Source: Fluviicola sp. (GTDB taxonomy: Bacteria > Bacteroidota > Bacteroidia > Flavobacteriales_D > Crocinitomicaceae). From it: a DNA stretch of 60,308 nt. The position numbers and the translations under genes are program-made. The notes below the pieces were generated by a model. The model saw only the letters and a list, made by a program, of their open reading frames with translations, did no database searches and had not been told where the DNA came from. The DNA is taken from positions 1-60,308 of the forward strand of contig JARWZO010000026.1 of the NCBI GenBank assembly GCA_029866325.1, given 5' to 3'. Of this stretch, positions 1 to 38,445 are shown one piece after another. Position 1 is the first letter of the stretch. Each line of letters begins with the position of its first letter.

Positions 1-13
1 TTGCTATCCTGTA

Positions 14-142
14 TTCAAACAGAATGCCATGCCGTGCCAAACGATCAGAAACTGAGTATTATCAAGGGTTGTAGCGCTGTGCCATATTTTTTGGCACTGA
101 ATAAAGTCTTCGAAAACGAAGATGAATCATTCGGAAACGAAT
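14..142 (-). promoter_or_regulatory. Unit A: leftward sigma-54 promoter with two activator sites
   Basis: On the minus strand, 29-14 reads TGGCATTCTGTTTGAA, a fair match to the -24/-12 consensus TGGCACG-N4-TTGCW with the correct spacing; the -12 part is TTGA rather than TTGC. Upstream are CTTCGAAAACGAAG at 108-121 and ATTCGGAAACGAAT at 129-142, both inverted repeats of TTCG-type arms, with starts 21 bp apart (two helical turns). The nearer site starts 79 bp from the promoter edge. The unit fires off the left end of the window. The assignment is by eye; the strength is that the same layout recurs at 342-470 and 4491-4606. Confidence 0.65.
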
Positions 143-230
143 ACTGAAGATTTGGTAAGCCGGTTTAATAAAGTAGTTGCAGACGCGAAAAATCGTGAAT
201 GACAAAAAAGAACGAAATCAGGGAAAATGA

Positions 231-262
231 AAATGGAGATAGACAAGCGTCATATCTCCATT
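231..262 (-). terminator. Hairpin, possible terminator of a unit B transcript
   Basis: AAATGGAGAT at 231-240 and ATCTCCATTT at 253-262 form a perfect 10-bp stem with a 12-base loop. Read leftward it is followed by a modest T-rich stretch (TCATTTTCCC), so termination strength is uncertain. With a start near 330 from the unit B promoter, the transcript would be about 100 nt. Confidence 0.4.
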
Positions 263-341
263 TACTTTCACCACTTAACACCTAACACTATTTGTTTTTA
301 CCACCTAACACTATTCACTTTTAACTGATTAACAATACTGT

Positions 342-470
342 TCCAAAAGGAATGCCAAAGTTGACTAAAGCAGCCAGAACATCAGTTTTATCAAGGGTTC
401 TGGCGTGTGCCAAAAATTTGAGCATTCAATTTAGTCTTTGAAAACGAAGGATTTCTATTCAAAAACGAAG
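342..470 (-). promoter_or_regulatory. Unit B: leftward sigma-54 promoter with two activator sites
   Basis: On the minus strand, 357-342 reads TGGCATTCCTTTTGGA, matching the -24 (TGGCA) and -12 (TTGG) elements of sigma-54 promoters with correct spacing. Palindrome-like sites CTTTGAAAACGAAG (436-449) and ATTCAAAAACGAAG (457-470) lie upstream, again 21 bp start to start, and the nearer one is again 79 bp from the promoter edge, identical to unit A. The unit probably binds the NtrC-type activator encoded at 4620-5984 (inference). No open reading frame follows within the ~310 bases to unit A, so its transcript may be a small RNA or the remnant of a lost gene. Confidence 0.65.
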
Positions 471-555
471 AATAAAACGCTAATAAAACGACGAGCATTT
501 ATGTGCACAACTTATCTGATAGAAAACACCTTGATTCACATCAATAAATCGTTTG

Positions 556-3090
556 CTAGTTTTGAAGTGTAATTTCAATCCCATCCACAAAATCTCCTTG
601 TGTTGATGTTTTTATTTCGAAAGATATTCGGGGATAATTAGAAGATAAGCCCAGACCTTTAAGTTGTTTTTCATCAAATTGAATGGTGTAATTTCCAGGT
701 GCTAATCCCAGATACGAAAAATAGCCGTCTTGCTCGGTTAATCCTTTTCCAACTTGTTTATTGTTGCTATCCATAATATAGACAATTTGTCGATTAGCCG
801 GGGAAATCGTTCCGTTTTTGTTGATCGAAATTTTCATTTCGACCTCCCCCATTGGTTTTACAGGAATAAAAACCTTTTTGATTTGATTTGGATTGGTAAC
901 CACCGACCACGTTGATTTTTCCAGAATCCATGAAATGGATGGGAATCCGTTATTTGCGACGGTTAATAAATAGGGAGTATAAGGTTCAAGTGAAACGAAT
1001 CGATGAATCGTGTCATTTTCTGTAAGGACTTGTTTCCCTTTGTTTATTGCAACGGTTGCGTTTTTAACGAATGGCTCATTATCGTCTTTTACATCATTGT
1101 GGTTAACATCCAAAAAAACGATCACGTCTAATCCTGCTCTTCCAACACTATTGCTGTTACTAACAAAAACCGGATTAGGTTTGCCCGTAAAATGGACACT
1201 TCCGGCTACTGTTTGAGTACTAGCTATATAGTTTTTTTGAACAGTCATGTTCCCACTGGTTCTCATGAAATTGAAATCAATATAAATGGACATACCAACC
1301 TGTAAGCTCTTGGTCGAATACGCGTAGGAGAAATTGGTTTCGGCATAAAGCATTTTATTGAATCGTTTTTGGAGTTGTAGGGTACTGCTTACCGGACTTT
1401 TACGTGAAATATTGTAAGATGTGTTGTGAATGATTGTCCAGTTATTTTTAAAATAAAAAGAAGTATTCCAACTCATAACCGTTTCTTGGCTTGTTATCAG
1501 TGTAAATCCGGTATTTATTCTTTTATAAAAAAACGAAATAGCAGATTCGCTAATAAAAGAATACCGCTCGTAGCTATATGTAAACCGATCAGTATTTCTC
1601 ACGTGTATTTTCAACTTTCTGTTCCAAATCGGAACATTGATGCCTAATTCAGATTCTCCGAGCTGAAGGGTTTGAATGATTGTTTGATTTTTAAGGTATT
1701 GACGATGTTTTCCGGTGATCACCAAATTTCGTTTGGTTCTTTGCATCAGTTCTATATAGTGACTTGAATTATGTAAATAGGTGTAATTAAGCAGTGTGTT
1801 TTTTCCCAAAGCCAGATTTAATGAACCTGAAAAAATGTGTTTGTTTAACATGTTTCCTTCAAAGTATTCATATCCGGCGCTTATTGTGGCCCAACGACTT
1901 AAGCCATAAGACATTTTTGATTTATTGAAAATAAAGTGAGAAGAATCAGCAGTAATTCCTGAATGCGTTTGATACTCTAAGTGTTTGTGTGTCGTAAAAG
2001 AAAAGGGTATGTTAATTGGAATTTCTTCGATGCTTTCTTGTCCCCAGGGCCCATAGTAACGAATCAAAATAATTGAACTGCCAAACACAAGCGGAATTTC
2101 AAAGTTAAAATAGCCGTTCATGTCGGCGGTTGTAAAATTTACCAGTATTCCGTTGACGTAAATCTCTACGTCCCATCCGGGATTCGTTTTTCGCTGAATG
2201 AGATAGCTGCCAAAGGTTTTTTTTATGCTATATGGTGTATTGGTAAGTTTGACTCCATAGAAGTTTGAAATAGTTTGACCGGTAAGACTTACATTGATAT
2301 TTCCCGCTTCCAGTTGTTTTAGTAAGGCAAATTTATCATTTACATACCTCCATTTAAGACTTGTATTCTGGAACTTAACTGCACTATCTCTGGTAACTAA
2401 GGATCTCCAATTCAATTCACCTCCCAAAACCTCCATTCCAAAAGAACTTTTGAATTGTTGGACATTCGCTCCTAAATTAACTTCTTTAGATTGTAAGTTC
2501 CAATCAATTACCGCTCCTCTAATCCAATTCCATTTTCTTGCAATAGTAGTGTCGGCATCAACATCTCCTGTTAACGTAAGCAGATTCGTTCTTAGTTTTT
2601 TGATTCGTAGTTGTTTAATAACAGGTAATTCGATATCAGAACGAAGAAAAAGGGTGAGCTCTCTAAAATTAAAATCCATGGTCATCCCAAACAATCCCTC
2701 ATAGATTTCCTTGGGCAAATAAACATCACTAAAATCAGATATGATCTGTTCCGGCTTTAAAAGTTGAGATTTATCCCGAAAGGTGATTTTACCTGAATTT
2801 AGATTGACTGAATAGGAATTATCGTTGCTGAGAATAAATCCGTTGATGGTATCCAATTGAACGGAATGATTCAGGTAAATCTCCAATTTGCCAAACAAAT
2901 CAATGATTGGTAAATAAATGTTGTCGTTGTAGTAAATCGCTTCCATTTCATACACTCCAAGTTTGTCAACATTTAAATTGATTGTGAATTGCTCATATTC
3001 TACTTCGTCCTGACTGAATACAGTCTTCGGTATATTCATGAAGAATAAACAAAAGATAATGGGTACTATTTTGGGCGAGAAGCAGCACAT
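556..3090 (-). CDS. Usher-like outer-membrane protein (chaperone-usher type)
   Basis: The 844-residue protein starts with a signal peptide (about residues 1-27). An N-terminal domain of about 170 residues follows, with alternating phrases such as IYLPIIDLFGKL and DVYLPKEIYEGLFG that recall the periplasmic N-domain of ushers. A long beta-rich region of about 450 residues is barrel-like. Inside it, around residues 300-370, EIYVNGILVNFTTADMNGYF and LIRYYGPWGQ resemble the plug and motifs of alpha/CS1-type ushers. The C-terminus carries a Cna-B/SdrD-like beta-sandwich (FLDVNHNDVKDDNEPF) and a second such domain. Size and order fit an usher, which would export chaperone-bound subunits. It starts 6 bases after the DUF4402 gene, in one operon with the chaperone. 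The family is inferred from pattern, with no direct match made. Confidence 0.65.
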   Translation of the reverse strand: MCCFSPKIVPIIFCLFFMNIPKTVFSQDEVEYEQFTINLNVDKLGVYEMEAIYYNDNIYLPIIDLFGKLEIYLNHSVQLDTINGFILSNDNSYSVNLNSGKITFRDKSQLLKPEQIISDFSDVYLPKEIYEGLFGMTMDFNFRELTLFLRSDIELPVIKQLRIKKLRTNLLTLTGDVDADTTIARKWNWIRGAVIDWNLQSKEVNLGANVQQFKSSFGMEVLGGELNWRSLVTRDSAVKFQNTSLKWRYVNDKFALLKQLEAGNINVSLTGQTISNFYGVKLTNTPYSIKKTFGSYLIQRKTNPGWDVEIYVNGILVNFTTADMNGYFNFEIPLVFGSSIILIRYYGPWGQESIEEIPINIPFSFTTHKHLEYQTHSGITADSSHFIFNKSKMSYGLSRWATISAGYEYFEGNMLNKHIFSGSLNLALGKNTLLNYTYLHNSSHYIELMQRTKRNLVITGKHRQYLKNQTIIQTLQLGESELGINVPIWNRKLKIHVRNTDRFTYSYERYSFISESAISFFYKRINTGFTLITSQETVMSWNTSFYFKNNWTIIHNTSYNISRKSPVSSTLQLQKRFNKMLYAETNFSYAYSTKSLQVGMSIYIDFNFMRTSGNMTVQKNYIASTQTVAGSVHFTGKPNPVFVSNSNSVGRAGLDVIVFLDVNHNDVKDDNEPFVKNATVAINKGKQVLTENDTIHRFVSLEPYTPYLLTVANNGFPSISWILEKSTWSVVTNPNQIKKVFIPVKPMGEVEMKISINKNGTISPANRQIVYIMDSNNKQVGKGLTEQDGYFSYLGLAPGNYTIQFDEKQLKGLGLSSNYPRISFEIKTSTQGDFVDGIEITLQN

Positions 3091-3096
3091 ATCAAG

Positions 3097-3645
3097 TCAT
3101 TCTAGTAGTATGAAAACATTGAATCTCCCGGAATACTTACCCGGAGATTCAAATGATGCATCTTGAATAGTCAATTTTGCACCAATACTGTATAAGAAAC
3201 CGGATTCAGCATTATTCGGACTTACAAATTGGGTTGGTTCAGTAAAAATCGGTTCGCAACGAATAGTGCCGTTTGATTGATCCTGTAATTCAATGATAGG
3301 ATCAATCATCACATGAATCATTGTATTGGAAGGACATTTAATTTCGAAAACGGCAGCTGAGGCATTTAATTCGGAATGCAATAGGATTACCGATCCGCTT
3401 GAAGACCGTGTACCGTTTTTAGTGATTTCGATGCTTCCTCCAAGCTGGCCGGGATAAAAGGCCCCAAAACTGAGATTGGATAACTGCGTAATGGAGATAC
3501 GGCGTTCTTCCTGATGATCCTGAAATAGTTCTTCGTGACCAGTGGAATGTTCCGCATTCAACTTGTTTTGAGCGAACAAAAAGCAAGGGAATGCAATGAC
3601 TATAACGAGTATAGACTTTTGGTATGTCCAATCGAAATAACGCAT
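3097..3645 (-). CDS. Secreted DUF4402 protein, probable pilin-like subunit
   Basis: The protein has 182 residues with an N-terminal hydrophobic signal segment ending near CFLFAQ (residues 20-26). The mature part matches the DUF4402 pattern: ISITQLSNLSFGAFYPGQ near the start, a glycine/serine-rich GTRSSSGSVILL stretch, and a final PGKYSGRFNVFIL strand. DUF4402 proteins are small immunoglobulin-like secreted proteins often found beside chaperone-usher genes. Lying between the chaperone (11 bases upstream) and the usher-like gene (6 bases downstream), it is the best candidate for a structural or tip subunit. No T9SS signal or lipobox is visible, which fits export by the neighbouring usher-like protein. 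Confidence 0.75.
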   Translation of the reverse strand: MRYFDWTYQKSILVIVIAFPCFLFAQNKLNAEHSTGHEELFQDHQEERRISITQLSNLSFGAFYPGQLGGSIEITKNGTRSSSGSVILLHSELNASAAVFEIKCPSNTMIHVMIDPIIELQDQSNGTIRCEPIFTEPTQFVSPNNAESGFLYSIGAKLTIQDASFESPGKYSGRFNVFILLE

Positions 3646-3656
3646 CTCTATTGCAA

Positions 3657-4466
3657 TTACAAACTGATTGGTTGATCGAAATAATACACTTCCTTCCCAT
3701 CAACTTTTGAATAGTACTTAAGAGCAATTTTTCCTTTTGTAAGATCTACTGTTTCAGGAATTGATAGGGGAACTGAAATATCCCGCGAATGGATTGGAGT
3801 GTAAACCGCAACACCATTTACTTTTCCAAGAATGGTCTTAGCGCCCGTTTCTGATGTGTGTTCAACTTCCAATTGACCGAATGTGGAAACATTACCATAT
3901 CGTTCAATTTTACAATCGACTTGTTTCAGACCATTTACATCCGTTACTTGAATATCCGATGCGTTGGCTTTTACAACCGACTGTCCCATTCGAAGAATAA
4001 CCGGGATCGTGATACCATAAACAGGCACAAGCTTAAATCCGATTCCTGTTGAGTCTGTTTCAGTTCCCATATCGGGAGTTTCATCCACAATTGATCTGAA
4101 GTATAAATGGGAGCGGTATTCTCCCGGAGCTAAATCGGGTGGCGTTTTTAATTGAAGTCTTACCATTTGAGCTTCATTTGGTGCCAACGTAACTGTTTTA
4201 GGGAAGATTCGCAGGTATTTATCGGCAAATAAAATACTGTCTTCGGCAGCATCTATTTTCTCCAGTTTTCCAGTGCTAAGCATTTTGTATTGCAAAAAAC
4301 TGATTGTATACCTGGCAGTATCTTTTCCAGTATTGGCAACGGTTAACTCTTCGATGTTTTTACCGTTTTCAAATACTACACGGAATGGTGTGATCAATAA
4401 ATCACTTTGCGAATGTGCATTAACTCCTATAAAAAGGGTGATAATTAAGAATAGTTTGTTTTTCAT
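3657..4466 (-). CDS. PapD/FimC-like periplasmic chaperone
   Basis: The protein has 269 residues with a cleavable signal peptide (about 1-20, ending AHSQ). Residues 22-140 form the first immunoglobulin-like domain of pilus chaperones: LLITPFRVVFENGKNIEELTV, then YRSHLYFRS in the G1-like strand. A second beta domain follows (VPVYGITIPVILR onward). Such chaperones complete the fold of pilus subunits by donating a strand and deliver them to the usher. It is the first gene of a three-gene operon preceded by a sigma-54 promoter at 4491-4506. At 269 residues it is longer than typical PapD (~215-240), mostly in the C-terminal domain. Confidence 0.75.
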   Translation of the reverse strand: MKNKLFLIITLFIGVNAHSQSDLLITPFRVVFENGKNIEELTVANTGKDTARYTISFLQYKMLSTGKLEKIDAAEDSILFADKYLRIFPKTVTLAPNEAQMVRLQLKTPPDLAPGEYRSHLYFRSIVDETPDMGTETDSTGIGFKLVPVYGITIPVILRMGQSVVKANASDIQVTDVNGLKQVDCKIERYGNVSTFGQLEVEHTSETGAKTILGKVNGVAVYTPIHSRDISVPLSIPETVDLTKGKIALKYYSKVDGKEVYYFDQPISL

Positions 4467-4490
4467 GATAGATCGTTTTTAATCTACCAA

Positions 4491-4606
4491 ACCAATTCTC
4501 ACGCCACTTTTTTCAAACAACTGTAAATCAACTAATTAGATTTTATTTGATTTTCAGACTTGTATTTTATTCTTCGTTTTCGAAGGTGTTTTTTCCAAAA
4601 ACGAAG
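4491..4606 (-). promoter_or_regulatory. Unit C: sigma-54 promoter and activator sites of the chaperone operon
   Basis: On the minus strand, 4506-4491 reads TGGCGTGAGAATTGGT, a good -24/-12 match (TGG and TTGG with ten bases between). It lies 25 bases upstream of the chaperone start. Upstream are CTTCGTTTTCGAAG at 4572-4585 and TTCCAAAAACGAAG (plus strand) at 4593-4606, starts 21 bp apart as in units A and B. The nearer site is 66 bp from the promoter edge, the usual range for enhancer sites of NtrC-type activators. The sites lie just downstream of the stop of the gene for the probable activator. Direct binding is inference. Confidence 0.75.
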
Positions 4607-4619
4607 ACTTTTGAATGAT

Positions 4620-5984
4620 TTACAGTTGGTATTTCTGTAATCTTCTGTGAAGGGCATTCCACTCGATGTTTAATAATCGTGCTGCTTCGGCTTTATTGAA
4701 ATCCGTTTTTTCGAGAGCTCGCATAATGGTGTTCTTTTCTATTTCTTCCAAATCAAATGTTTCGGTCAACGTTTTGGTGTTTGAAAATGACTTGATGATA
4801 TCAAAATGCTTGCTTTGAAGTTCATTTTCGTTGCAAAGGATTACTGCCCGTTCCATTAAATTACGCAACTCTCTCACATTTCCGGGAAAACGGTATTCAT
4901 TAAACAATGCCAAGGCGTCATCACTAATTCCACGAATATCCTTTCCCATTTTGCTGTTGAGGGATTTCAAAAAATGATTGGCGATAATCGGGATGTCATC
5001 TTTTCTGTCTCGAAGCGGTGGAATATGGATTATAAATGTTCCCAGACGGTGAAATAAATCAAGTCGGAAGCTTGTGTTTTCTGTTAATGTTTCAATACTC
5101 TTGTTGGTTGCAGAGACAATTCTCACGTCAAAAGGCGCACTCTTTTGGGTACCGACTTTTGTGTATTTTCGATCCTCCAATACACGTAATAATTTTACTT
5201 GCAGGTTCAATGTCATTTCGCCGATTTCGTCTAGAAAAAGGGTTCCTTTATTGACTGTTTCAAACCAACCTGCTTTATCTGTAGACGCATCGGTAAAACT
5301 GCCTTTCGTATGTCCGAAAAATTCACTTTCAAAGAGTGCATCAGGAATGGCAGACATATTTGAAGCTCCGAATAGTTGATCTTTTCTATTGCTGAAATCG
5401 TGAATGGCTCTAGCTACCAGTTCTTTACCTGTTCCACTTTCACCTATAATAAGCACGGAAGTATCCGGTGTTTGGGCAACCATTTTAATTTGTTCTATGA
5501 CAGCTAAAATTTGTTTTGATTTTCCGATGATAGTTCCGATTTCACTTTTCAATTCCTTCTTTAAAAGAACATTTTGTTGTTTTTGTGTAGTTAAATCTTG
5601 CTTTAGCTGAGAGTATTTCATCACCCTTTCAATTGACATCCAAATATCGGCAGGAGTAAACGGTTTTTTAAAATAATCAGCAGCTCCTTTTCTCAATGCC
5701 TCGATTACCGTGTCCATATCTCCTGAATTACTGATCAAAATCACTTCAATTGCCGGATATTCGACTTTTACTTTTTCTAGTAATTCTAAACCGGTCATTT
5801 CAGGTAAGATGTAATCTGAAATGATAAAATTGATTTTCTCTTTTTTTAGAATTTTAAATCCGTCGGATGGACAATCAGCTGCAAAGACATTAAATTTCTC
5901 ACCCAAAATAGAAGCTGACAAACGTCTATAAAATGGATCGTCATCAATAATTAATAGGTTAAGTTTCGTAGTATCTTCTTCCAT
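4620..5984 (-). CDS. NtrC-family sigma-54-dependent response regulator
   Basis: The protein has 454 residues. It has a receiver domain at 1-125 (acidic DDD at 14-16, phospho-acceptor Asp57 in ISDYILPEM, Lys107 in KKPF). The AAA+ domain at about 150-385 has Walker A GESGTGKE at 181-188 and Walker B GTLFLDEIGE at 247-256, with arginines in FRLDLFHRL. A C-terminal Fis-type helix-turn-helix lies at about 410-454. The sigma-54 contact loop reads GSFTDA (228-233) instead of GAFTGA. The protein should activate sigma-54 promoters from upstream sites, and the paired palindromes of units A-C are likely targets. It starts 3 bases after the stop of the receiver-kinase gene, so the two are co-transcribed. 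Confidence 0.93.
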   Translation of the reverse strand: MEEDTTKLNLLIIDDDPFYRRLSASILGEKFNVFAADCPSDGFKILKKEKINFIISDYILPEMTGLELLEKVKVEYPAIEVILISNSGDMDTVIEALRKGAADYFKKPFTPADIWMSIERVMKYSQLKQDLTTQKQQNVLLKKELKSEIGTIIGKSKQILAVIEQIKMVAQTPDTSVLIIGESGTGKELVARAIHDFSNRKDQLFGASNMSAIPDALFESEFFGHTKGSFTDASTDKAGWFETVNKGTLFLDEIGEMTLNLQVKLLRVLEDRKYTKVGTQKSAPFDVRIVSATNKSIETLTENTSFRLDLFHRLGTFIIHIPPLRDRKDDIPIIANHFLKSLNSKMGKDIRGISDDALALFNEYRFPGNVRELRNLMERAVILCNENELQSKHFDIIKSFSNTKTLTETFDLEEIEKNTIMRALEKTDFNKAEAARLLNIEWNALHRRLQKYQL

Positions 5985-5987
5985 GAT

Positions 5988-7076
5988 TTAAATAGATTTA
6001 TCGATGATAATCGTAAGGGTAGTTCCTTCGTTAACAATGCTATTGACTTTCAATTCTGCATTGTTTTTTTGAATCAGGTCTTTTATAATTTGAAGTCCCA
6101 AACCCGAACCCTTTTCTTTGTTCGTTCCATTGGATTTATGAAACTCGTTCTTTACAAATATTTTTTCTACCACCCCCTTACTCATTCCAATTCCGGAATC
6201 TTCCAGTAGAATTGCTATTTTTTGACCATTCTCTTCACATGAAAAAGCGATTTCTCCACCGGTGGGCGTAAATTTTATTGCATTTGCTAGTAAATTTCGA
6301 AGGATCACTTCCATAGATTTTTCATGGCAAATGAGTTTAACCTTTTCATCTACATTGTTTTGTATTTCCAATTCTTTAGAATCAGACTGCTGTTTTAAAA
6401 ATGCGATTACCGTATCTACGATCGGTTTAAGCTGTTTGGATTGAAGTTGATTGTTATTTTCGTTCATCAACAAGTGTCCCCATTCAATTAATTCATCAAT
6501 TAATCCATTGGTCTTTTGGGTTTCTGTGTCTAAGATGTCTAACAGCTCTTTAAAGTCGGAAGAATTCGAATCAATGTGTCCTCCGTTTAATAGCTGTAAA
6601 AACTGGGTGATTTTATTGAAAGGGGCCTTGATATCATGCGCGATAATAGAATAAATCAGGTCTCTGTTTTTATAGAGTTCTTTTAGTTTTCGTTTGGAAA
6701 GAAACAAATCCAAGTGCGTGTTTACTCTGGCAAGAAGTTCTAGTCTGTTAAACGGTTTGAAAATGTAATCCACACCCCCTGCTTCGAACGCTTCTAAAAT
6801 GTCAGCCGTTTGCGCTTTTGCTGTCAAAAATATCAGCGGTATTTCTTTTAATGTATCGATGCGTTTAATCCTGCGACAAGTTTCAAGACCATCGATTTCA
6901 GGCATCATGATGTCCATCAAGATCAAATCAATGTCATTATTTAAGAGCACATTAATCGCGCTTTCCCCATTTAAGGAAACGGCAATATCAAATTGTTCTG
7001 ATTGAAGAATGCTTCCAACAACTTTGAGGTTCTCAATATTGTCATCAACGATCAATATTTTGGGAGTGTAATCCAT
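5988..7076 (-). CDS. Receiver-histidine kinase fusion protein
   Basis: An N-terminal receiver domain (KILIVDDN at the start, phospho-acceptor Asp in LILMDIMMPEIDG, Lys in KPFNR) is followed directly by a HisKA domain with the H-box IIAHDIKAPFNK and a HATPase_c domain (N-box LLANAIKFTP, G-boxes DSGIGM and GSGLGLQI). There is no membrane segment, so the kinase is cytoplasmic and probably receives phosphate or a signal through its own receiver. It lies immediately upstream of the NtrC-type regulator and is its likely kinase. I chose the Met that begins MDYTPKILIVDDN; an in-frame ATG at 7130 would add 18 residues without family character. Confidence 0.85.
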   Translation of the reverse strand: MDYTPKILIVDDNIENLKVVGSILQSEQFDIAVSLNGESAINVLLNNDIDLILMDIMMPEIDGLETCRRIKRIDTLKEIPLIFLTAKAQTADILEAFEAGGVDYIFKPFNRLELLARVNTHLDLFLSKRKLKELYKNRDLIYSIIAHDIKAPFNKITQFLQLLNGGHIDSNSSDFKELLDILDTETQKTNGLIDELIEWGHLLMNENNNQLQSKQLKPIVDTVIAFLKQQSDSKELEIQNNVDEKVKLICHEKSMEVILRNLLANAIKFTPTGGEIAFSCEENGQKIAILLEDSGIGMSKGVVEKIFVKNEFHKSNGTNKEKGSGLGLQIIKDLIQKNNAELKVNSIVNEGTTLTIIIDKSI

Positions 7077-7329
7077 GAATAGCGATTTGAACTTGTTGAC
7101 TGATAACCACATTCTTGTTTCCGCTGACATGAATAAAGAAGTGTAACAGCAACCTTATTAATATGTAATTCTTTAGAGGTTTAACTTGTAATCATCTTGG
7201 CACGTGTTCATTAATTGATGCCGCAATAGTTATTATTTTCTGATAGATTTGTTTTTTGTATAATCTCACTCATTTGTATGAACAATATAGTGTTTTTTTC
7301 AAAATTAAAAACAGGTTTAATGCATTTAC
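7077..7329. other. Gap between the two kinase genes
   Basis: About 250 bases, AT-rich, with no gene seen. A TGGCACG at 7198-7204 looks like a -24 box but has no -12 partner (see rejected items). The gap could hold the promoter of the receiver-kinase/NtrC pair. Confidence 0.4.
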
Positions 7330-10131
7330 TTATTGCGAACTCACATTCGTTCTATTCTTGTTTCTTTCATCAATGATAAGTTGAATTTTTTTAAGCAGGT
7401 TTGGGAATTCGTTCAACGTTGATGAAATCTCCATCAGATTAACGTTGTCGACGTGATTCAAGATCAGTCTTGAATAATTTTCCAAATAGTCGAATTGATA
7501 CTTTTGCGCAAACTCAAGTAAATTAACTCCAAATTCTTCAATTCGAAACAAGACCATTCCATCTTTTATCATGGAATAGGCAGGAAGAAAATCATGGTTC
7601 AAGATCGCTAGTATCTCTGAGAGCTTATTGCTGATTTCCGGATTTAAATGAATACTCAAGCTTTCATCTATTTCCTCAAATGATGAATCGGGCGAAATAG
7701 TTTTGTAGGGCAGATATTTCATAAGCATATTTACCAATTCTGCTTTATTGGTGGGTTTGTATAAAAAACCATCAAAATGAACCGATAACTCTTGATCTGT
7801 TTTAGCTGAGACAGATGCTGTTAACGCTATGAGAGGTACGTTTTTGAATGTTGCGCTTGATCTAACTTTTTCTGCTACCTGATATCCATTCATCTTCGGC
7901 ATTCGGATATCCAACAGGATCAATGATGGTGTTAACGTTTCCAAAATTTCCAAAGCCATTTCACCACTATCAGCAGAAATAATTTCCAATCCCATTTCGT
8001 CCAATAATCCTTCAACTGCCATAATGTTAGAGAGAACATCATCAACAACCAGGATCATATTATCTTCGAAATGCACATTGTCGATAGGTAAAAAAGGATT
8101 TGATTTTTTGATAAGTTCATGACAGATTTCAACATCCGGAATAATCAACGAAAACTCAGAACCTTTTCCGGGTTTACTGCTCATTTCGATTCGACCGTTC
8201 ATTTTTTCAGCCAATTGCCTGGAAATAGACAATCCCAAACCTGCCCCGGCATATAGTCGGTTTGAGTGCCCAGATTGTTGTCTAAACGCATCGAAAATCA
8301 GCTCATGTTGATCTAGGGGTATTCCAATTCCCGTATCAATTACATCCACTCTTAATTGACCTTTCAATTCGTCAACAGCTTCGAATAACAAGTTGATTCT
8401 TACGTATCCTTTATGTGTGAACTTAATGGCGTTTCCTATCAAATTAAAGATTATTTGCTTAAAACGAATTTCGTCAAGCAATAACCCTTTGGGGAACATC
8501 GGGTCTATTTCAACCGAAAGTGAAACACCTTTTTTTAGGGTTTTCTCAAAGAATAGAAGCTTAATCTCATTTACAATGTTGATTGCATCAACAGGCATTT
8601 TTACAATATCAATCTTGTCAGCTTCAATTTTTGACAAATCCAAAATATCATTCAGAAGTGCTAAAAGTAAATTTCCACTACTTAAAATTGATTCGATCAT
8701 CTTTTTAAATTGTGGATTATCCGTTTTGTGATAAATAGTTTCACTAAAGCCTAAAATAGCATTCATTGGCGTTCTGATTTCGTGGCTCATATTAGCAAGG
8801 AATTCAGTTTTCGCATTACTTGCAGCTTCGGCTTTATGTTTTTCATCGATAAGTTTGCGTTCTAGCTCGGCACGCTGTCTCACATTCACCAACATTCTCG
8901 AAAATATGGTGAGCAACGATTCTTCTTTTTCGGTGTAAACATGATGTTCCTTAACTGAATCAAAACCAACGAAACCGATGCAATCATCACCATCCATCAT
9001 TGGTATTGCCAGCAAGCTCACTATTTCTTGTTGTTCAAGTGGAATACGCACTTCATGACCTTCAGGCAATTCATAAACATCTGGAATGTTCATGTTTTTC
9101 CCTTCTTTATGCGTCCCGGCCCAAATCTTTATGGTGTCTAGCGGCAAGGCTTGTAATTCATTGATTTGCGGTGAAATTCCTTCTTCACACCATTCATGGG
9201 TATTGGTACAGATTCCTTTAATCCAATCATAGCTAAAAACATAAGCGCGATCGGCCCCAACAAATTGCCCTAATTCTCTTAGTGATTTGTGAATCGCATC
9301 TTCTAACTGATTCAATGGAATGTTGATATACATGGAAGAGACATCCATCAATATTTTTTGTAAAGCGGTTTGATTTTGAAGCGCCTCTTCGATTCTTTTT
9401 CTACGACTGATATCGTTGTAGATCCATAGATTCTCGACATACCCATTCGCAAAAATGATGGGAATATAGTCTATTTGAAAAAGCCTTCCATCTTCTAATT
9501 CTAATTCTTCGCTTAAAACAACCTTTTTTTCGTTTTGAATAAAAATAATCCTCCTACTAAATGAATCAGGATATTTAAACAATCCTTTTATTTTATCAAT
9601 GAGTTCCGATGTATTTGTTCCTTCTAATTCATGCTCGTCTATTTCTAAACCTACCATACTACAGAACTTCTTATTCAATTGCTGAATTTTAAAGTCTGAG
9701 CTCTCAATGATTATTCCACCGGGGAAATTGGTCAAGAAAGTATTGAAGCGATTGGTGAGATTGTTTAACTGATCTGAATAATCAGTTGTTCCGGTGAACA
9801 AACAAATGATCTCATCATGATCTTGAGGGATCAGTTGTAATCGATAGTTGGTTTTGATCTGATTAAAAACAGTAAAATCATCTGTTTTTCCGTTCACAAA
9901 ATTGATTAAGCAGACTAGCAATTCTCCCCAATCAAAGTCATCGGTTTTGACCTGCAATTCGGAAAAATACTTTGTTAATAAATCTGCTTCATCTCTTTGT
10001 ACTATTTCTGTGAAGGCCTCATTTAACTGAATTATTCTGGCATCTGAAACAATTCTCGTTTCATTGAAAATGAGCTTGCATTTCGCGAATCCGAAAAGCG
10101 TAGAGTGCATCGCGGTTGGAATAGTGAGCAT
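7330..10131 (-). CDS. Hybrid sensor histidine kinase (PAS-GAF-HisKA-HATPase-REC)
   Basis: The protein has 933 residues without a membrane segment. From the N-terminus it has one or two PAS-like regions (the clearer one near residues 135-240, LTNFPGGIIIESSDFKIQQL), then a GAF domain (about 260-420, QFVGADRAYVFSYD). HisKA follows with H-box EFLANMSHEIRTPMNAILGF (His near 449), then HATPase_c with the N-box NLIGNAIKFTHKGY. A receiver domain (about 690-810) has phospho-Asp in LILLDIRMPKMNGY. The last ~110 residues are helical but lack an HPt histidine motif. It belongs to the BarA/ArcB-like class, probably senses a cytoplasmic signal, and by position may feed the receiver-kinase and NtrC pair. 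That link is inference. Confidence 0.88.
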   Translation of the reverse strand: MLTIPTAMHSTLFGFAKCKLIFNETRIVSDARIIQLNEAFTEIVQRDEADLLTKYFSELQVKTDDFDWGELLVCLINFVNGKTDDFTVFNQIKTNYRLQLIPQDHDEIICLFTGTTDYSDQLNNLTNRFNTFLTNFPGGIIIESSDFKIQQLNKKFCSMVGLEIDEHELEGTNTSELIDKIKGLFKYPDSFSRRIIFIQNEKKVVLSEELELEDGRLFQIDYIPIIFANGYVENLWIYNDISRRKRIEEALQNQTALQKILMDVSSMYINIPLNQLEDAIHKSLRELGQFVGADRAYVFSYDWIKGICTNTHEWCEEGISPQINELQALPLDTIKIWAGTHKEGKNMNIPDVYELPEGHEVRIPLEQQEIVSLLAIPMMDGDDCIGFVGFDSVKEHHVYTEKEESLLTIFSRMLVNVRQRAELERKLIDEKHKAEAASNAKTEFLANMSHEIRTPMNAILGFSETIYHKTDNPQFKKMIESILSSGNLLLALLNDILDLSKIEADKIDIVKMPVDAINIVNEIKLLFFEKTLKKGVSLSVEIDPMFPKGLLLDEIRFKQIIFNLIGNAIKFTHKGYVRINLLFEAVDELKGQLRVDVIDTGIGIPLDQHELIFDAFRQQSGHSNRLYAGAGLGLSISRQLAEKMNGRIEMSSKPGKGSEFSLIIPDVEICHELIKKSNPFLPIDNVHFEDNMILVVDDVLSNIMAVEGLLDEMGLEIISADSGEMALEILETLTPSLILLDIRMPKMNGYQVAEKVRSSATFKNVPLIALTASVSAKTDQELSVHFDGFLYKPTNKAELVNMLMKYLPYKTISPDSSFEEIDESLSIHLNPEISNKLSEILAILNHDFLPAYSMIKDGMVLFRIEEFGVNLLEFAQKYQFDYLENYSRLILNHVDNVNLMEISSTLNEFPNLLKKIQLIIDERNKNRTNVSSQ

Positions 10132-10316
10132 AACTGAAATTAGTTAATGGGTTATTCGTGTTCAAAGGAATTTTAAATTAAGGAAAATAATACACAAAGC
10201 AACTATTTTTTTGTTTGGAACAAAAAGTTGTTGCAGGTTAATCACCTGAATTCTGATTTTGAAACCGTGTCCGCATTTGGCTTGAGTGCTTACAGGTTAA
10301 TATAGACTTGAAAGAA

Positions 10317-10610
10317 TTAGTTTCTGAGAAAGCAATGAAGATCTTCTAAATTTTCGCTGATGAGTCGGATCGTATAGTGATGCACGGCGTATTCCATTTC
10401 GATGAGGTTGGCTCGCTTGAGTTTTTGTAAATGATGATGTATCGTTGTCGGATGTAGTTTCAACCAACCTGAAAAATCGGTTGACCGCAACATTGAAGTA
10501 CGTCTTAGTTCGTTGATAATTGCCACTCTAGCCGGATGAGCGAGTGCACTGGCAGTAACTGATAGATTCTTGAAATCTTGAGAAAATTGATCGGCTTTTG
10601 AAGCTCCCAT
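10317..10610 (-). CDS. ArsR-family winged-helix transcriptional regulator
   Basis: The protein has 97 residues and is essentially a single winged helix-turn-helix domain. ALAHPARVAIINELRR is the typical ArsR entry helix, STDFSGWLKLHPTTIHHHLQ the recognition helix-turn-helix, and LKRANLIEMEYAVHHYTIRL the wing. No metal-binding CxC motif is present, so it is unlikely to be a classic arsenic sensor. It faces the same way as the suf operon upstream and stands alone. An inverted repeat at 10611-10649, directly before its start codon, suggests self-regulation. Confidence 0.75.
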   Translation of the reverse strand: MGASKADQFSQDFKNLSVTASALAHPARVAIINELRRTSMLRSTDFSGWLKLHPTTIHHHLQKLKRANLIEMEYAVHHYTIRLISENLEDLHCFLRN

Positions 10611-10649
10611 AATGGTCTTTTCTTATTTAAGTTAGACGAAAAGATCATT
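10611..10649 (-). promoter_or_regulatory. Inverted repeat before the ArsR-type gene (candidate operator)
   Basis: AATGGTCTTTT at 10611-10621 and AAAAGATCATT at 10639-10649 are inverted copies matching at 10 of 11 positions, separated by 17 bases and abutting the start codon of the ArsR-type gene. This position would let a bound dimer block initiation. No binding data exist; the repeat is seen directly. Confidence 0.4.
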
Positions 10650-10679
10650 TGGTCAAAATTATTCGGAGGTTTTTTTCGA

Positions 10680-10745
10680 GAAAAGTGTAAAATTTTAAAA
10701 ATCTAAACGTTTAAAATTGGCCAATTTTAGAATTTTACACTTTTC
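10680..10745. terminator. Long inverted repeat downstream of sufD
   Basis: GAAAAGTGTAAAATT at the left and its inverse AATTTTACACTTTTC at the right bracket a central near-palindrome TAAAATTGGCCAATTTTA (about 10712-10729). Transcripts leaving sufD leftward would fold into a long AU-rich hairpin followed by UUUUC, so it may end the suf transcript. An operator role for the adjacent ArsR-type protein is an alternative. Confidence 0.45.
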
Positions 10746-10779
10746 AAAGAAGTCCGGAAACACTGGGTTTTAGAACGTC

Positions 10780-12054
10780 TTATCCAACAAAATCCCACTC
10801 AAACCGTTCCTGCAACAATTGATCAACTCTTGTCTTCACAGCCTCATTTGTCAATTTCCCGAAAACATCCCCAACAAAAGCACCAACCATTAACTGCCTG
10901 GCTGCTTTTTCGCCAATTCCACGAGCTCTGAGGTAGAAGATAGCTTCGTCATCAAGCTGACCGGTGGTAGAACCGTGTGAACATTTCACATCATCTGCAT
11001 AAATCTCCAGTTCCGGTTTCGAGTTAACGGTAGCATCATTGCTGAGTAATACATTCCCGTTCGACTGAAAAGCATTGATCTTCTGAGCGTCTTTTCGCAC
11101 GAAGACCTTTCCGTTGAAAACCGCAGTTGCTTTTTCGTCGATAACACCTTTGTACAATTCGTTCGAAACGCAATGAGCAACGGTATGATCTACAACAGTA
11201 TGGTTGTCAACGTGCTGACTTCCTTTTAGGATGTAAGCTCCATTCAGATGAGTTTCACAATTTTGGCCATTTACAGCAATGTTTAAATTGTTGCGAACCA
11301 ATCCGCCATTCAGTGTAAGCGTATTGATAGTGAAATTAGAGTCTGTGGCTTGCGTTACTTGTTCCGTTGCAATGGTGAAGCAAGATTCATCTTCATACTG
11401 CAATTTATCGATGGTTAAAAAGGCATTTTTAGCAACTGAAACTTCGGTTACTACATTCGTGAAACAAGTATTGGCATTCTCGGTAACATACTGTTGCACA
11501 ATGTGTGCTTTTGAAAACGCTTCGGCAACAATCACATTTCTGAGGTGCGAAATGGTATTTGTGCCGGTAACGATGTGCGTGATTTCTATAACAGGCTTAA
11601 TATGCATGTTAGCGGAAATGTGCAAGTAAACACCATCTGTTGCATAGGCAGTATTGAAGGCATTAAATAATTCTCCTTCCAGCGGTAAAGTGTTTCCTAA
11701 AACGGAAAGTTCCATTACCTCCATTTGCGAAAGCGCCAATAATTTGATTCCGTCGGGAAAATGCGAAGAAGAAAGGTTGGAAGCGAAATGACCGTTTACG
11801 AACACCAATGAAATCGCATTCAAATCAATCTGGTGACGATTAGAAGCCAGTTGTTCTTGTCGAGCAACAAAATTTCCATTGCGAATTTTTGCCAAGCGCG
11901 TATATTTCCAAGCCTCGGTTCTAGTTGTTGGGAAAGGCATGTTTTCCAGCACCGAAAGCGCTTTTTTACGCAAATCTTCCGATAATAGATGTTTTCCTTC
12001 GAGCTTCCAATTTACACTGGCCGCCATTTCAGGGATAATCGTTTCTAAATTCAT
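10780..12054 (-). CDS. sufD: SufD, Fe-S cluster scaffold complex subunit
   Basis: The protein has 424 residues of the SufB/SufD right-handed beta-helix family. The C-terminal block is diagnostic: KCSHGSTTGQLDDEAIFYLR followed by a helical RGIGEKAARQLMVGAFVGD. SufD joins SufB and the SufC ATPase in the SufBC2D complex, which assembles Fe-S clusters in the cytoplasm. It is the last gene of the minus-strand sufA-B-C-D operon, 12 bases after sufC. The usual next genes, sufS and sufE, are absent here, so the cysteine desulfurase must be elsewhere. Confidence 0.95.
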   Translation of the reverse strand: MNLETIIPEMAASVNWKLEGKHLLSEDLRKKALSVLENMPFPTTRTEAWKYTRLAKIRNGNFVARQEQLASNRHQIDLNAISLVFVNGHFASNLSSSHFPDGIKLLALSQMEVMELSVLGNTLPLEGELFNAFNTAYATDGVYLHISANMHIKPVIEITHIVTGTNTISHLRNVIVAEAFSKAHIVQQYVTENANTCFTNVVTEVSVAKNAFLTIDKLQYEDESCFTIATEQVTQATDSNFTINTLTLNGGLVRNNLNIAVNGQNCETHLNGAYILKGSQHVDNHTVVDHTVAHCVSNELYKGVIDEKATAVFNGKVFVRKDAQKINAFQSNGNVLLSNDATVNSKPELEIYADDVKCSHGSTTGQLDDEAIFYLRARGIGEKAARQLMVGAFVGDVFGKLTNEAVKTRVDQLLQERFEWDFVG

Positions 12055-36141: not shown

Positions 36142-37281
36142 ATGAGTTCCAAACAAGATCGCAGAACCTTTATTGAACGACTAACAATCGCATCAGGTTC
36201 TCTTTTCGCACTACCTTGGCTAACAGCAGCAACAAAAAATGACAAACTAACAGAAGAAAAAGTGACGAATCCAATAAAACAAATCAAACCACTCGGTTTT
36301 CAATGGGAAACCCAAGATCCGTTCTTGTTCTGTGTGCACCACGAAGATTTTTTTCCGAAAGGAAATGACCAAATGGGACCGGATCAAACGCATTTCAAGG
36401 GTCGCCATATGGGTGATGATTTCATTATCAAAGACGGTTTCAGGATGTATCACGGAAAAACGGTTCCCGGATTTCCCGGGCATCCGCATCGGGGGTTTGA
36501 AACCATTACTGTTGTGCGCAAAGGATTGGTCGATCATGCCGATTCATTGGGTGCTGCCGGTCGTTACGGCGACGGCGACGTGCAATGGATGACTTCCGGA
36601 AAAGGAGTACAGCATTCAGAGATGTTTCCCTTGCTTTCGAAAGAAGAGGAAAATCCAATGGAACTGTTTCAGATCTGGCTCAATTTGCCGAAGAAGGATA
36701 AAATGGTGGAACCGCACTTTAAAATGTTGTGGAAAGATGCCATTCCGAATATCACGGTAACGGATGAAGCCGGTAAAACGTCAGCCGTAGAATTGATTGC
36801 CGGAAGTTGGGGCGAATCGGTGGCTTCTGCACCTCCACCCAATTCGTGGGCTGCCGTAAAAGAAAACGAAGTGTTGATTGTCAATATCAAGATGCAACCC
36901 GAAGCACAAGTGGTGTTGCCGAAAGCAAGTACGGGTGTGAATCGCACGCTTTATTTTTACGAAGGTGATCAATTGACCATTTCCGATCAAACAATTTCGT
37001 CGTATTCAGGCATCGAACTACTTGCCGATCAAGAAGTATTACTGAAAGCAGGAACGGCTCCCGCCAGTATTTTGATCCTTCAGGGAAAACCGATAGCCGA
37101 ACAGGTGATGCAGTACGGACCTTTTGTAATGAATACCAAAGAAGAAATCAATCAGGCATTTCAAGACTATCACGACACGCAGTTTGGTGGTTGGCCGTGG
37201 CCGAAATACGATCAGGTACACGATCGTTCAAAACCGCGTTTTGCAAGAAATGCTGATGGAACCGAAGAGGTAAAGGTGTAA
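36142..37281 (+). CDS. Pirin-family protein with twin-arginine-like leader
   Basis: The 379-residue bicupin has the pirin metal site: GHPHRGFETITVV supplies two histidines, and GKGVQHSEMF supplies a third histidine and the Glu. The pirin C-terminal domain covers about 240-350. The N-terminus, SKQDRRTFIERLTIASGSLF, looks like a Tat signal (RRxFI), so the protein may be exported folded with its metal, unlike most pirins, which are cytoplasmic. Some pirins act as quercetin dioxygenases; the substrate here is unknown. A palindromic operator candidate precedes it. Confidence 0.82.
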   Translation: MSSKQDRRTFIERLTIASGSLFALPWLTAATKNDKLTEEKVTNPIKQIKPLGFQWETQDPFLFCVHHEDFFPKGNDQMGPDQTHFKGRHMGDDFIIKDGFRMYHGKTVPGFPGHPHRGFETITVVRKGLVDHADSLGAAGRYGDGDVQWMTSGKGVQHSEMFPLLSKEEENPMELFQIWLNLPKKDKMVEPHFKMLWKDAIPNITVTDEAGKTSAVELIAGSWGESVASAPPPNSWAAVKENEVLIVNIKMQPEAQVVLPKASTGVNRTLYFYEGDQLTISDQTISSYSGIELLADQEVLLKAGTAPASILILQGKPIAEQVMQYGPFVMNTKEEINQAFQDYHDTQFGGWPWPKYDQVHDRSKPRFARNADGTEEVKV

Positions 37282-37317
37282 GATTTAAATAGAAAACAGC
37301 AATTTTTCGGACGTTCT

Positions 37318-38445
37318 TTAAAACGCCTCTCCCACAAAGATATAGAGTCCGTTTCCTTCATTGGTAAAGGCCAAATCTAGACGTATCCATACATCTTTTT
37401 TACGGAATAGTTGAAATCGTAAACCGGCACCACCTGCAAAAAGAATATGATCATTCGTTAGATTGTTGAGGTTGCTATACACGGCTCCGGTTCCTGCAAA
37501 TACGGAAGCGCCCCATCGTTTGGCAAAACGTACCGGTAACATTCGATACTCTATTTGAGCTGCCATTAAGTTACGGTCGCGAAATCTACCTAAGTAATAT
37601 CCACGCATCATTGTTTCACCTCCTAACAAAGCCAGTTGGTTGAAGGGTGGGTTGCCATAAGTAAACTGTCCTATTACTTGAGTAGCAAGAACGTTTCGCT
37701 CAAGAATTGGCTTGAACCAGCGCATGTCTGCATAAACGGAAGTGAATTCAAAATCGCTACCCCAGTTAGGTGTATAATGAAGAAAGGCAACTTCAGAGAA
37801 AAAACCGTGACGCACATTCAGCACATTGTGGCGGTTGTCGTACAACAATCCTAGTCCGAATCCCATATTAGTTGATCCTTCGCTTCCCGCTGGTTTTTCA
37901 TAGACGATAGAAGTATCGGAGTCCACGAAATCAACTTTCCCCAAATGGTGTAAATCGGTTTCTAGTCCTACATAAACGTTTTTATAAATCTTACGCAATA
38001 CCCGCTCTTTCAACTGAAACTGAAAGGCATCTACACGCGCTATTTTTTCGCTTGGCGATTCAGGACCAATGCCATGATAGGATAAAGGGAAACTTTGAAA
38101 TTTAAGTTTGCCAAGAAAAAACCAGTTGTTTTTGTGAGAATAGTTAGCATGATCTATAATTCCTCCATATTGTTGTTGCAGTGTATAGAACCCAAGCGCG
38201 TTTACTTCACTTAACCGATTAGTTGTATCACGTTTGGCATAATACATAAATAAACTACTCACACCAATTTCAACACTTGTTTCGGGAGCATAAGCTAAAA
38301 TAGGGTAAGCAATAAACTGCGGTTTCGATTTATCAACCGTATCATTGAATACACGATTTAGGTACCGCATTGCAAACGATTGTTTTTCCTGAGCAATGGA
38401 GCAGATATTTAAGCAAACATAGAGAAATAGAACAATGTATTTCAT
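37318..38445 (-). CDS. BamA/TamA-type (Omp85) outer-membrane barrel protein without POTRA domains
   Basis: The 375-residue protein has a signal peptide (about 1-18) and alternating beta strands throughout. LGGETMMRGYYLGRFRDRN is the loop-6 (V/I)RGY/F motif of the Omp85 family, followed by LMAAQIEYRML and VFAGTGAVYSNL strands typical of the C-terminal barrel. The size is the barrel alone; the N-terminal POTRA repeats of BamA are missing. Such short forms occur in Bacteroidota with unknown cargo. It is convergent with the pirin gene and divergent from mtnD. Confidence 0.8.
   Translation of the reverse strand: MKYIVLFLYVCLNICSIAQEKQSFAMRYLNRVFNDTVDKSKPQFIAYPILAYAPETSVEIGVSSLFMYYAKRDTTNRLSEVNALGFYTLQQQYGGIIDHANYSHKNNWFFLGKLKFQSFPLSYHGIGPESPSEKIARVDAFQFQLKERVLRKIYKNVYVGLETDLHHLGKVDFVDSDTSIVYEKPAGSEGSTNMGFGLGLLYDNRHNVLNVRHGFFSEVAFLHYTPNWGSDFEFTSVYADMRWFKPILERNVLATQVIGQFTYGNPPFNQLALLGGETMMRGYYLGRFRDRNLMAAQIEYRMLPVRFAKRWGASVFAGTGAVYSNLNNLTNDHILFAGGAGLRFQLFRKKDVWIRLDLAFTNEGNGLYIFVGEAF

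Follow-up and report, generated by a model that had tools for sequence, protein, structure and literature searches.

The window analysed here is the whole contig C1 (60,308 bases) of a Fluviicola sp. genome (G000) with a total of 4.68 Mb and a listed contamination of 1.11%. Within the first 10.1 kb of this contig, six intact open genes on the minus strand appear to encode a divergent chaperone-usher system for surface fibres of DUF4402 proteins, with its own sigma-54 regulon and on a genomic island. The probability of this reading is estimated at about 0.83. Sequence, gene order and fold evidence together make it most likely that the cluster works as a chaperone-usher system. The order of the six genes was first proposed in an original prediction from the letters alone, and it is borne out: all frames are open and lie on the minus strand. 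In the order of transcription, they are:

7330..10131, minus strand, hybrid sensor kinase with PAS-GAF-HisKA-HATPase-receiver composition (Pfam domains)
5988..7130, minus strand, receiver-histidine kinase with receiver-HisKA-HATPase composition (Pfam domains)
4620..5984, minus strand, NtrC-type sigma-54 activator with receiver, AAA+ Sigma54_activat and HTH_8 (Fis helix-turn-helix, HTH) domains (Pfam)
3657..4466, minus strand, PapD-like periplasmic chaperone of 269 amino acids (homologues, family profile and synteny)
3097..3645, minus strand, DUF4402 subunit of 182 amino acids (Pfam PF14352)
556..3090, minus strand, usher-like outer-membrane protein of 844 amino acids (family profile against FimD, structure model and C-terminal SdrD_B)

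The 844-residue protein is outside the curated usher family PF00577 (Pfam Usher), which does not match it even at E ≤ 1. The only Pfam domain over the cut-off is SdrD_B at the C-terminus. PF00577, the profile of classical ushers, is above its curated cut-off in 0/395 Bacteroidota genomes. Four sub-threshold PF00577 matches were observed in these genomes, and all four are within the family of the present protein. Six of the 30 family members reach PF00577 at E ≤ 1, with the best E of 1.9e-4, and two of the 30 show weak matches to the TcfC domain. The comparison with hhalign, performed without a control of unrelated proteins, aligned the 30-member profile with E. coli FimD (P = 8.5e-5, probability 60%) and with the C-terminus of EcpC (P = 1e-4, probability 58%). 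The FimD match spans residues 190-413 of the 844-residue protein, which correspond to the barrel start and the plug, not the C-terminus. The Foldseek search of the structure model against 350,542 PDB chains indicated that ranks 1 to 15 are all FimD or PapC, with E from 6.4e-11; the best FimD fold alignment shows 12% identity. Profiles of small alignments retrieved no usher, PapD or pilin name from PDB sequences at E ≤ 0.01. The protein is divided as follows:

residues 33-151, N-terminal domain
residues 195-266, first set of barrel-type strands
residues about 281-361, plug-like insert
residues 371-629, second set of barrel-type strands (465-524 unmodelled)
residues about 650-745, putative further sandwich
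residues 746-844, C-terminal sandwich domain

A 24-strand barrel with a plug was expected for this protein. The low-confidence model, with 20 barrel-type strands and the unmodelled gap, is compatible with it. The Cna-B-like C-terminus, which was claimed to be a difference from ushers, is a real domain of the Cna-B/transthyretin-like type according to VIA-align. The difference itself is not clear, because canonical ushers likewise end in small beta-sandwich domains and the EcpC C-terminus aligns. In the family alignment (A11, E ≤ 1), SPOR domains were found in 9/30 members, OmpA domains in 2/30 and TPR domains in some, which suggests anchoring to peptidoglycan in those members. The copper amine oxidase N1 domain was found in 7/30.

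The window chaperone alone has no PapD match in Pfam. Two plasmid homologues, 25-27% identical to it, pass PapD_N, and 7/29 members of the chaperone family match PapD_N at E ≤ 0.01. Near-full-length relatives of the usher (over 270 bits, most of the profile) gave 75 matches in 71/395 Bacteroidota genomes, the own genome included. Among the 74 further matches, 29 top loci were fetched with short flanks. The chaperone is upstream of the usher on the same strand in 29/29 loci; it is adjacent in 28, and a gap of 829 bases is present in L062. A second set consisted of 18 wider usher regions, three of them from genomes already among the 29 loci and some ending at contig ends. The chaperone is present in 16 of the 18, and the two regions that lack it both run into a contig end a short way upstream of the usher. 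Por_Secre_tail, the sorting-tail domain of the type IX secretion system (T9SS), was matched by 5/29 chaperones (alignment A14, best E 6.9e-5), perhaps just reflecting the common sandwich fold.

The DUF4402 gene of the window matches PF14352 with 58.3 bits against a cut-off of 25.2. The own genome contains one further DUF4402 gene, which scores 113.3 bits and whose 5' side is cut by the end of another contig, C24. The original prediction suggested more subunits left of the window, and this gene bears it out. Among 30 DUF4402-type tails, 27 have a glycine at positions -13 to -15, 25 have an aromatic residue at -1 or -2, and 22 have both; most of these rows were recovered with a profile covering the tail, or belonged to it, and this biases the count towards the motif. 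The motif is seen in 0/50 window open reading frames (ORFs) of at least 150 codons and in 4/4 E. coli proteins, FimA, FimI, FimF and FimG. The tail of the window DUF4402 protein has the glycine at -14 and no penultimate aromatic residue, as does its orthologue in G008, a genome of the same genus. Such a tail fits a minor or specialised subunit, and the window copy is probably of this kind. The best PDB matches of the DUF4402 structure model are chaperone-usher pilins, CfaB (E = 6.9e-3) and Caf1 (E = 2.4e-2), with Csu subunits lower. A pilin was seen in the short remaining flank of 7/29 fetched loci and in 11/18 wider regions, some of the latter matches being weak (E up to 0.007). In G591, the order is the same as in the window (chaperone, pilin and usher), with one extra pilin in front.

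The distribution of the system is uneven. In the genus, chaperone and DUF4402 were found in 2/14 genomes; two of the 12 genomes without a match are less than 90% complete. In the order, 5/399 genomes match a two-row usher profile, three of them at full length. In the phylum, 228/395 Bacteroidota genomes match a seven-row usher profile (E ≤ 1e-3), many via the C-terminal domain only. In this 395-genome sample, near-full-length relatives in the class of the window are limited to the own genome, G539 and G591. The original prediction noted that most pili of Bacteroidota use other routes, such as lipoprotein-based and T9SS-linked assembly. The system is no peculiarity of a single genome: its ushers are widespread among Bacteroidota, though rare in the order of the window. 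Outside the phylum, one Neomarinimicrobiota contig encodes a chaperone and an usher; in front of them are two frames that have tails like those of pilins and lie beyond the reach of the pilin profile. DUF4402, chaperone and usher are found together in three proteobacterial plasmid stretches.

In the tree of 28 usher rows, which is midpoint-rooted and has several long branches, five ushers from Bacteroidia form one clade (100/99). The proteobacterial clade (100/100) includes the Bacteroidota rows G442 and G550 (family f29), and a cleanly phylum-wise usher family was rejected on this grouping. More distant barrel proteins are present in G035 and G058 (L010 7935-13400; L011 2369-5293). The one in G035 is accompanied by a chaperone and by two pilin-like genes in which DUF4402 was not found. 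These barrel proteins are a probable sister branch.

The activator contains a complete Sigma54_activat domain (207 bits), and the own genome encodes sigma-54. A 15-bp activator element, TTCGTTTTCGAA, occurs with small variations in pairs 21 bp apart from start to start. One pair is before the chaperone, with the second copy inverted, and two are in the 555 bases that follow the usher. G008 has the same pair before the chaperone and three pairs after the usher. With up to three mismatches allowed, the window holds 13 matches to the site, including five within the cluster, compared with a mean of 3.7 in shuffled sequences; the left-edge promoter repeats, called unit A in the original prediction, are thus real. 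Within the 4.68 Mb, direct-repeat pairs of the site (up to two mismatches) are confined to two places, each of them in the window, and the reversed control gave none. The control elements, in the order of decreasing position, are:

4572..4606, minus strand, paired activator sites before the chaperone operon, 21 bp apart, second copy inverted
4526..4538, minus strand, IHF consensus match, located after the activator sites and before the -24 element
4491..4506, minus strand, sigma-54-like promoter P1, TGGCGTGAGAATTGGT
435..470, minus strand, paired activator sites, first copy of unit A, 21 bp apart
342..357, minus strand, sigma-54-like promoter P2, TGGCATTCCTTTTGGA
107..141, minus strand, paired activator sites, second copy of unit A, 21 bp apart
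14..29, minus strand, sigma-54-like promoter P3, TGGCATTCTGTTTGAA, directed towards the contig end

The paired sites lie 99 and 100 bp from the -24-like element at the two chaperone promoters (window and G008) and 112-113 bp from it at the five other promoters of the two species. The -24 GG is present at the sigma-54-like promoters. The block CCCTTGATA between the pair and the -24-like element is invariant in the five downstream copies. At P1, a perfect match to the IHF consensus is in a similar place; no chance control was made for this match. The scan for sigma-70 promoters showed no excess (31 found versus 36.7 in shuffles). Three features of an NtrC-type regulon are present: an activator with receiver, AAA+ and HTH domains, paired upstream sites, and a sigma-54 gene. 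NtrC genes beside the cluster are found in the own genome, G008 and G274 (same order) only, all three being Flavobacteriales. Sigma-54 control as a general property of the usher family is disfavoured, as no NtrC gene was found in the 18 wider regions.

P2 has no gene behind it. A hairpin terminator is located about 100 nucleotides downstream, and its place and sequence are kept in G008:

228..332, minus strand, predicted transcript of about 100 nucleotides ending in the conserved hairpin, position kept in G008

The G008 counterpart of the whole unit (window 228-357, minus strand) is at about 13492-13620 of L026. The fold z-score of the transcript is -4.4, largely from the terminator. There are no minus-strand ORFs of at least 20 codons wholly inside, and two that start inside overrun the terminator. 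The Rfam search of window positions 1-11000 gave no match. The transcript may be a small RNA made alongside the fibre genes. In G008 (L009 206-830), a promoter of the same type is followed by a small frame of about 118 codons and then by a broken DUF4402 remnant and a terminator.

Since the window is the entire contig, position 1 is a contig end rather than a mere window edge. In the closed sister genome G011, sufD is followed in turn by an HTH gene, by tlyA and by one more gene, with about 40 bp between the HTH gene and tlyA. The G011 stretch around these genes contains none of the cluster genes, and whole-genome searches of G011 found no usher, DUF4402 or chaperone relative. In the own genome, the cluster is placed between the HTH gene on C1 and tlyA on C24, which indicates that the left end of C1 and the right end of C24 flank the same island. 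The DUF4402 gene of C24 very probably continues the window cluster, and P3 probably drives it; an unrelated copy is disfavoured by the tlyA synteny. Both island edges carry a copy of about 82 bp from the 3' end of the ArsR-type HTH gene, with 64/82 positions alike (78%), and the copy on the tlyA side is nearer to the sequence of the sister genome:

window 10294-10373, repeat copy of the HTH gene 3' end
L012 9196-9277, repeat copy of the HTH gene 3' end

In G008, one contig stops shortly after a promoter of this sigma-54-like type, with the broken DUF4402 remnant between, and a second contig breaks off within a DUF4402 gene. That two assemblies are interrupted at similar places suggests that the pilin genes are repeated. 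Among 25 flanking proteins, 23 have a match; they are 88-100% identical to G011, which lacks the cluster, and 39-99% (median 69) to G008. For the six cluster proteins, identity to the counterparts in G008 is 69-93%; the neighbours of the cluster in G008 differ from those in the own genome. The differing neighbours and the flank identities make exchange within the genus likely, with loss in G011 as a possible event, and the cluster looks like the cargo of a mobile island. Simple vertical descent in the genus is disfavoured by the presence in only 2/14 genomes, the empty site of G011 and the differing neighbours in G008. Farther along the window, two adjacent genes (36142-38445) are unmatched in the examined syntenic stretches of G008 and G011, unlike their neighbours.

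The proposed working of the system is as follows. A signal would pass through the two kinases, presumably in a phosphorelay, to the NtrC-type activator. The activator would bind the paired palindromic sites and, with sigma-54, fire P1, P2 and P3. P1 would supply the chaperone, the minor subunit and the usher, P2 the short RNA, and P3 the major DUF4402 subunit. The subunits would reach the periplasm by putative signal peptides. There the PapD-like chaperone would hold the incomplete immunoglobulin (Ig) fold of a subunit by donor-strand complementation. The usher barrel would open its plug, swap the chaperone strand for the N-terminal extension of the next subunit, and thread the fibre out. The fibre may have an adhesive or biofilm role.

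Several results weigh against this reading. The usher model has low confidence (mean predicted local distance difference test score, pLDDT, 45; predicted template modelling score 0.26), and its query TM-scores to the 15 usher chains are low, at 0.11-0.17. None of the 50 rows displayed by VIA-align is an usher; all 50 reach the C-terminal domain, and they are thus silent on the barrel. The DUF4402 model (pLDDT 61) has no PDB match at E ≤ 0.001, and hhalign detected nothing between DUF4402 and FimA (P = 0.15). More chaperones match fn3_5 than PapD_N (9/29 versus 7/29). The chaperone profile retrieves a WxL-interacting protein first from PDB sequences (E = 0.017) and PapD next (0.033), and its hhalign match to FimC is weak (P = 0.007). 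Pfam and NCBIfam gave no curated usher or chaperone call for the window proteins. The join of C1 and C24 comes from synteny and not from a read. In an improbable alternative, the barrel protein would be some other exporter or adhesin scaffold of the outer membrane, LptD-like or T9SS-linked and equipped with Ig-like and SdrD_B-like domains, and the PapD-like and DUF4402 proteins would serve it as accessory and cargo without donor-strand polymerisation. SdrD_B as the only domain over the Pfam cut-off, LptD among the Foldseek matches from rank 16, and the resemblance of the chaperone profile to WxL-interacting proteins are consistent with it. FimD and PapC at ranks 1 to 15, the location of the FimD match outside the C-terminus, the upstream chaperone in 29/29 loci and the pilin tail motif argue instead for the chaperone-usher reading, as the original prediction had it. 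A decaying or inactive cluster is very unlikely. The broken DUF4402 remnant of G008 and the 12 genus genomes without a match would agree with decay, but all six genes are whole both in the own genome and in G008, a second species, with the identities given above, and the promoter architecture is conserved.

The sigma-54 part of the original prediction is supported by the activator domains, the paired sites, the -24/-12-like elements and the sigma-54 gene, and is atypical in two respects. The -12 elements read TTGG or TTGA without the usual GC, the standard promoter having -24 GG and -12 GC. The activator loop reads GSFTDA in the own genome and G008 rather than GAFTGA, the loop with which activators contact sigma-54; G274 has two activators, with GAFTGA and GSFTGA. 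In the window, the GSFTDA loop (4620-5984, minus strand) coincides with -12 elements lacking GC, and the two might have changed together. Several -24-like candidates exist in each promoter region, and the choice fell on the candidate that keeps its register among the copies. The absence of NtrC genes beside the 18 relatives outside the order, some of whose regions end at contig ends, also counts on this side. It is conceivable, but unlikely, that the NtrC-like protein of a chaperone-usher system acts without sigma-54 or that another sigma factor is in control: the -24 GG is at near-constant spacing to the paired sites in seven promoters, the AAA+ domain is complete, and sigma-54 is encoded. 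A more serious alternative, although still the less probable one, is that the products form a thin polyadhesive coat or matrix fibril and not a rod-like pilus. None of the six genes is annotated as a tip adhesin, and Caf1, the subunit of a capsule-like fibre, is among the best fold matches of the pilin model. The pilus subunits CfaB and Csu are also among the matches, and these data do not distinguish rod from coat.

A broader reading, for which the chances appear about even, joins these observations. The cluster would belong to an unrecognised chaperone-usher branch with its own ushers ending in SdrD_B/transthyretin-like domains and with DUF4402 or related pilins. This branch would be the usual chaperone-usher system of Bacteroidota, present also in Neomarinimicrobiota and Proteobacteria, and captured in Flavobacteriales by a sigma-54 switch of its own, which additionally produces a small RNA next to repeated pilin genes. 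Most accounts describe chaperone-usher pili as chiefly a machinery of Proteobacteria. If the present interpretation is true, the pathway extends to a major phylum, in which the usher family is near full length in the 71 genomes, and DUF4402 gains a function. Such distant ushers would also provide a test of which gating and strand-exchange parts are essential.

As far as the literature searches reached, the system is new as a described system. No description of it was found in the open-access chaperone-usher literature, including the available parts of PMC4793230, PMC4654587, PMC3796261 and PMC11316588. DUF4402 (PF14352) is not mentioned in the open-access literature searched, a scope outside which most subscription papers and supplements fall.

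The classical pili of E. coli (Fim and Pap) are similar in having pilin, chaperone and usher genes together, a PapD-like chaperone, an usher homologous over the barrel start and plug of FimD, and pilin tails with glycine at -14 and tyrosine at -2. They differ in that the present usher is below the Pfam Usher threshold and distant from FimD in the fold alignment, the DUF4402 subunits are not FimA-like by sequence, and the control is of sigma-54 type, in Flavobacteriales. The alternative (alpha/CFA-I and ECP) and archaic (Csu) pathways are approached by the pilin model, whose best match is CfaB, followed by Caf1 and then Csu; the C-terminus of EcpC and the TcfC domain (2/30 members) match weakly. 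The present proteins have no significant sequence membership in these pathways. Archaic systems are described from Proteobacteria, Cyanobacteria and Deinococcus-Thermus (PMC4654587, in the part available). The plasmid sets of Polaromonas, Sphingopyxis and Pseudoalteromonas have DUF4402, chaperone and 'carboxypeptidase regulatory-like' genes side by side, each annotated separately in their records. Their pilin genes precede the chaperone, whereas in the window the pilin sits between chaperone and usher. The examined plasmid stretches contain no NtrC or kinase match and no exact activator site, and their ushers are 16-18% identical to that of the window. Type V pili (FimA/Mfa1) of Bacteroidales are donor-strand-assembled surface fibres in Bacteroidota (PMC11316588, in the part available). 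The present system, of the same phylum, would share this mode of assembly. Type V pili are made from lipoprotein precursors cut by a protease, with no chaperone or usher, whereas the present cluster contains genes for both.

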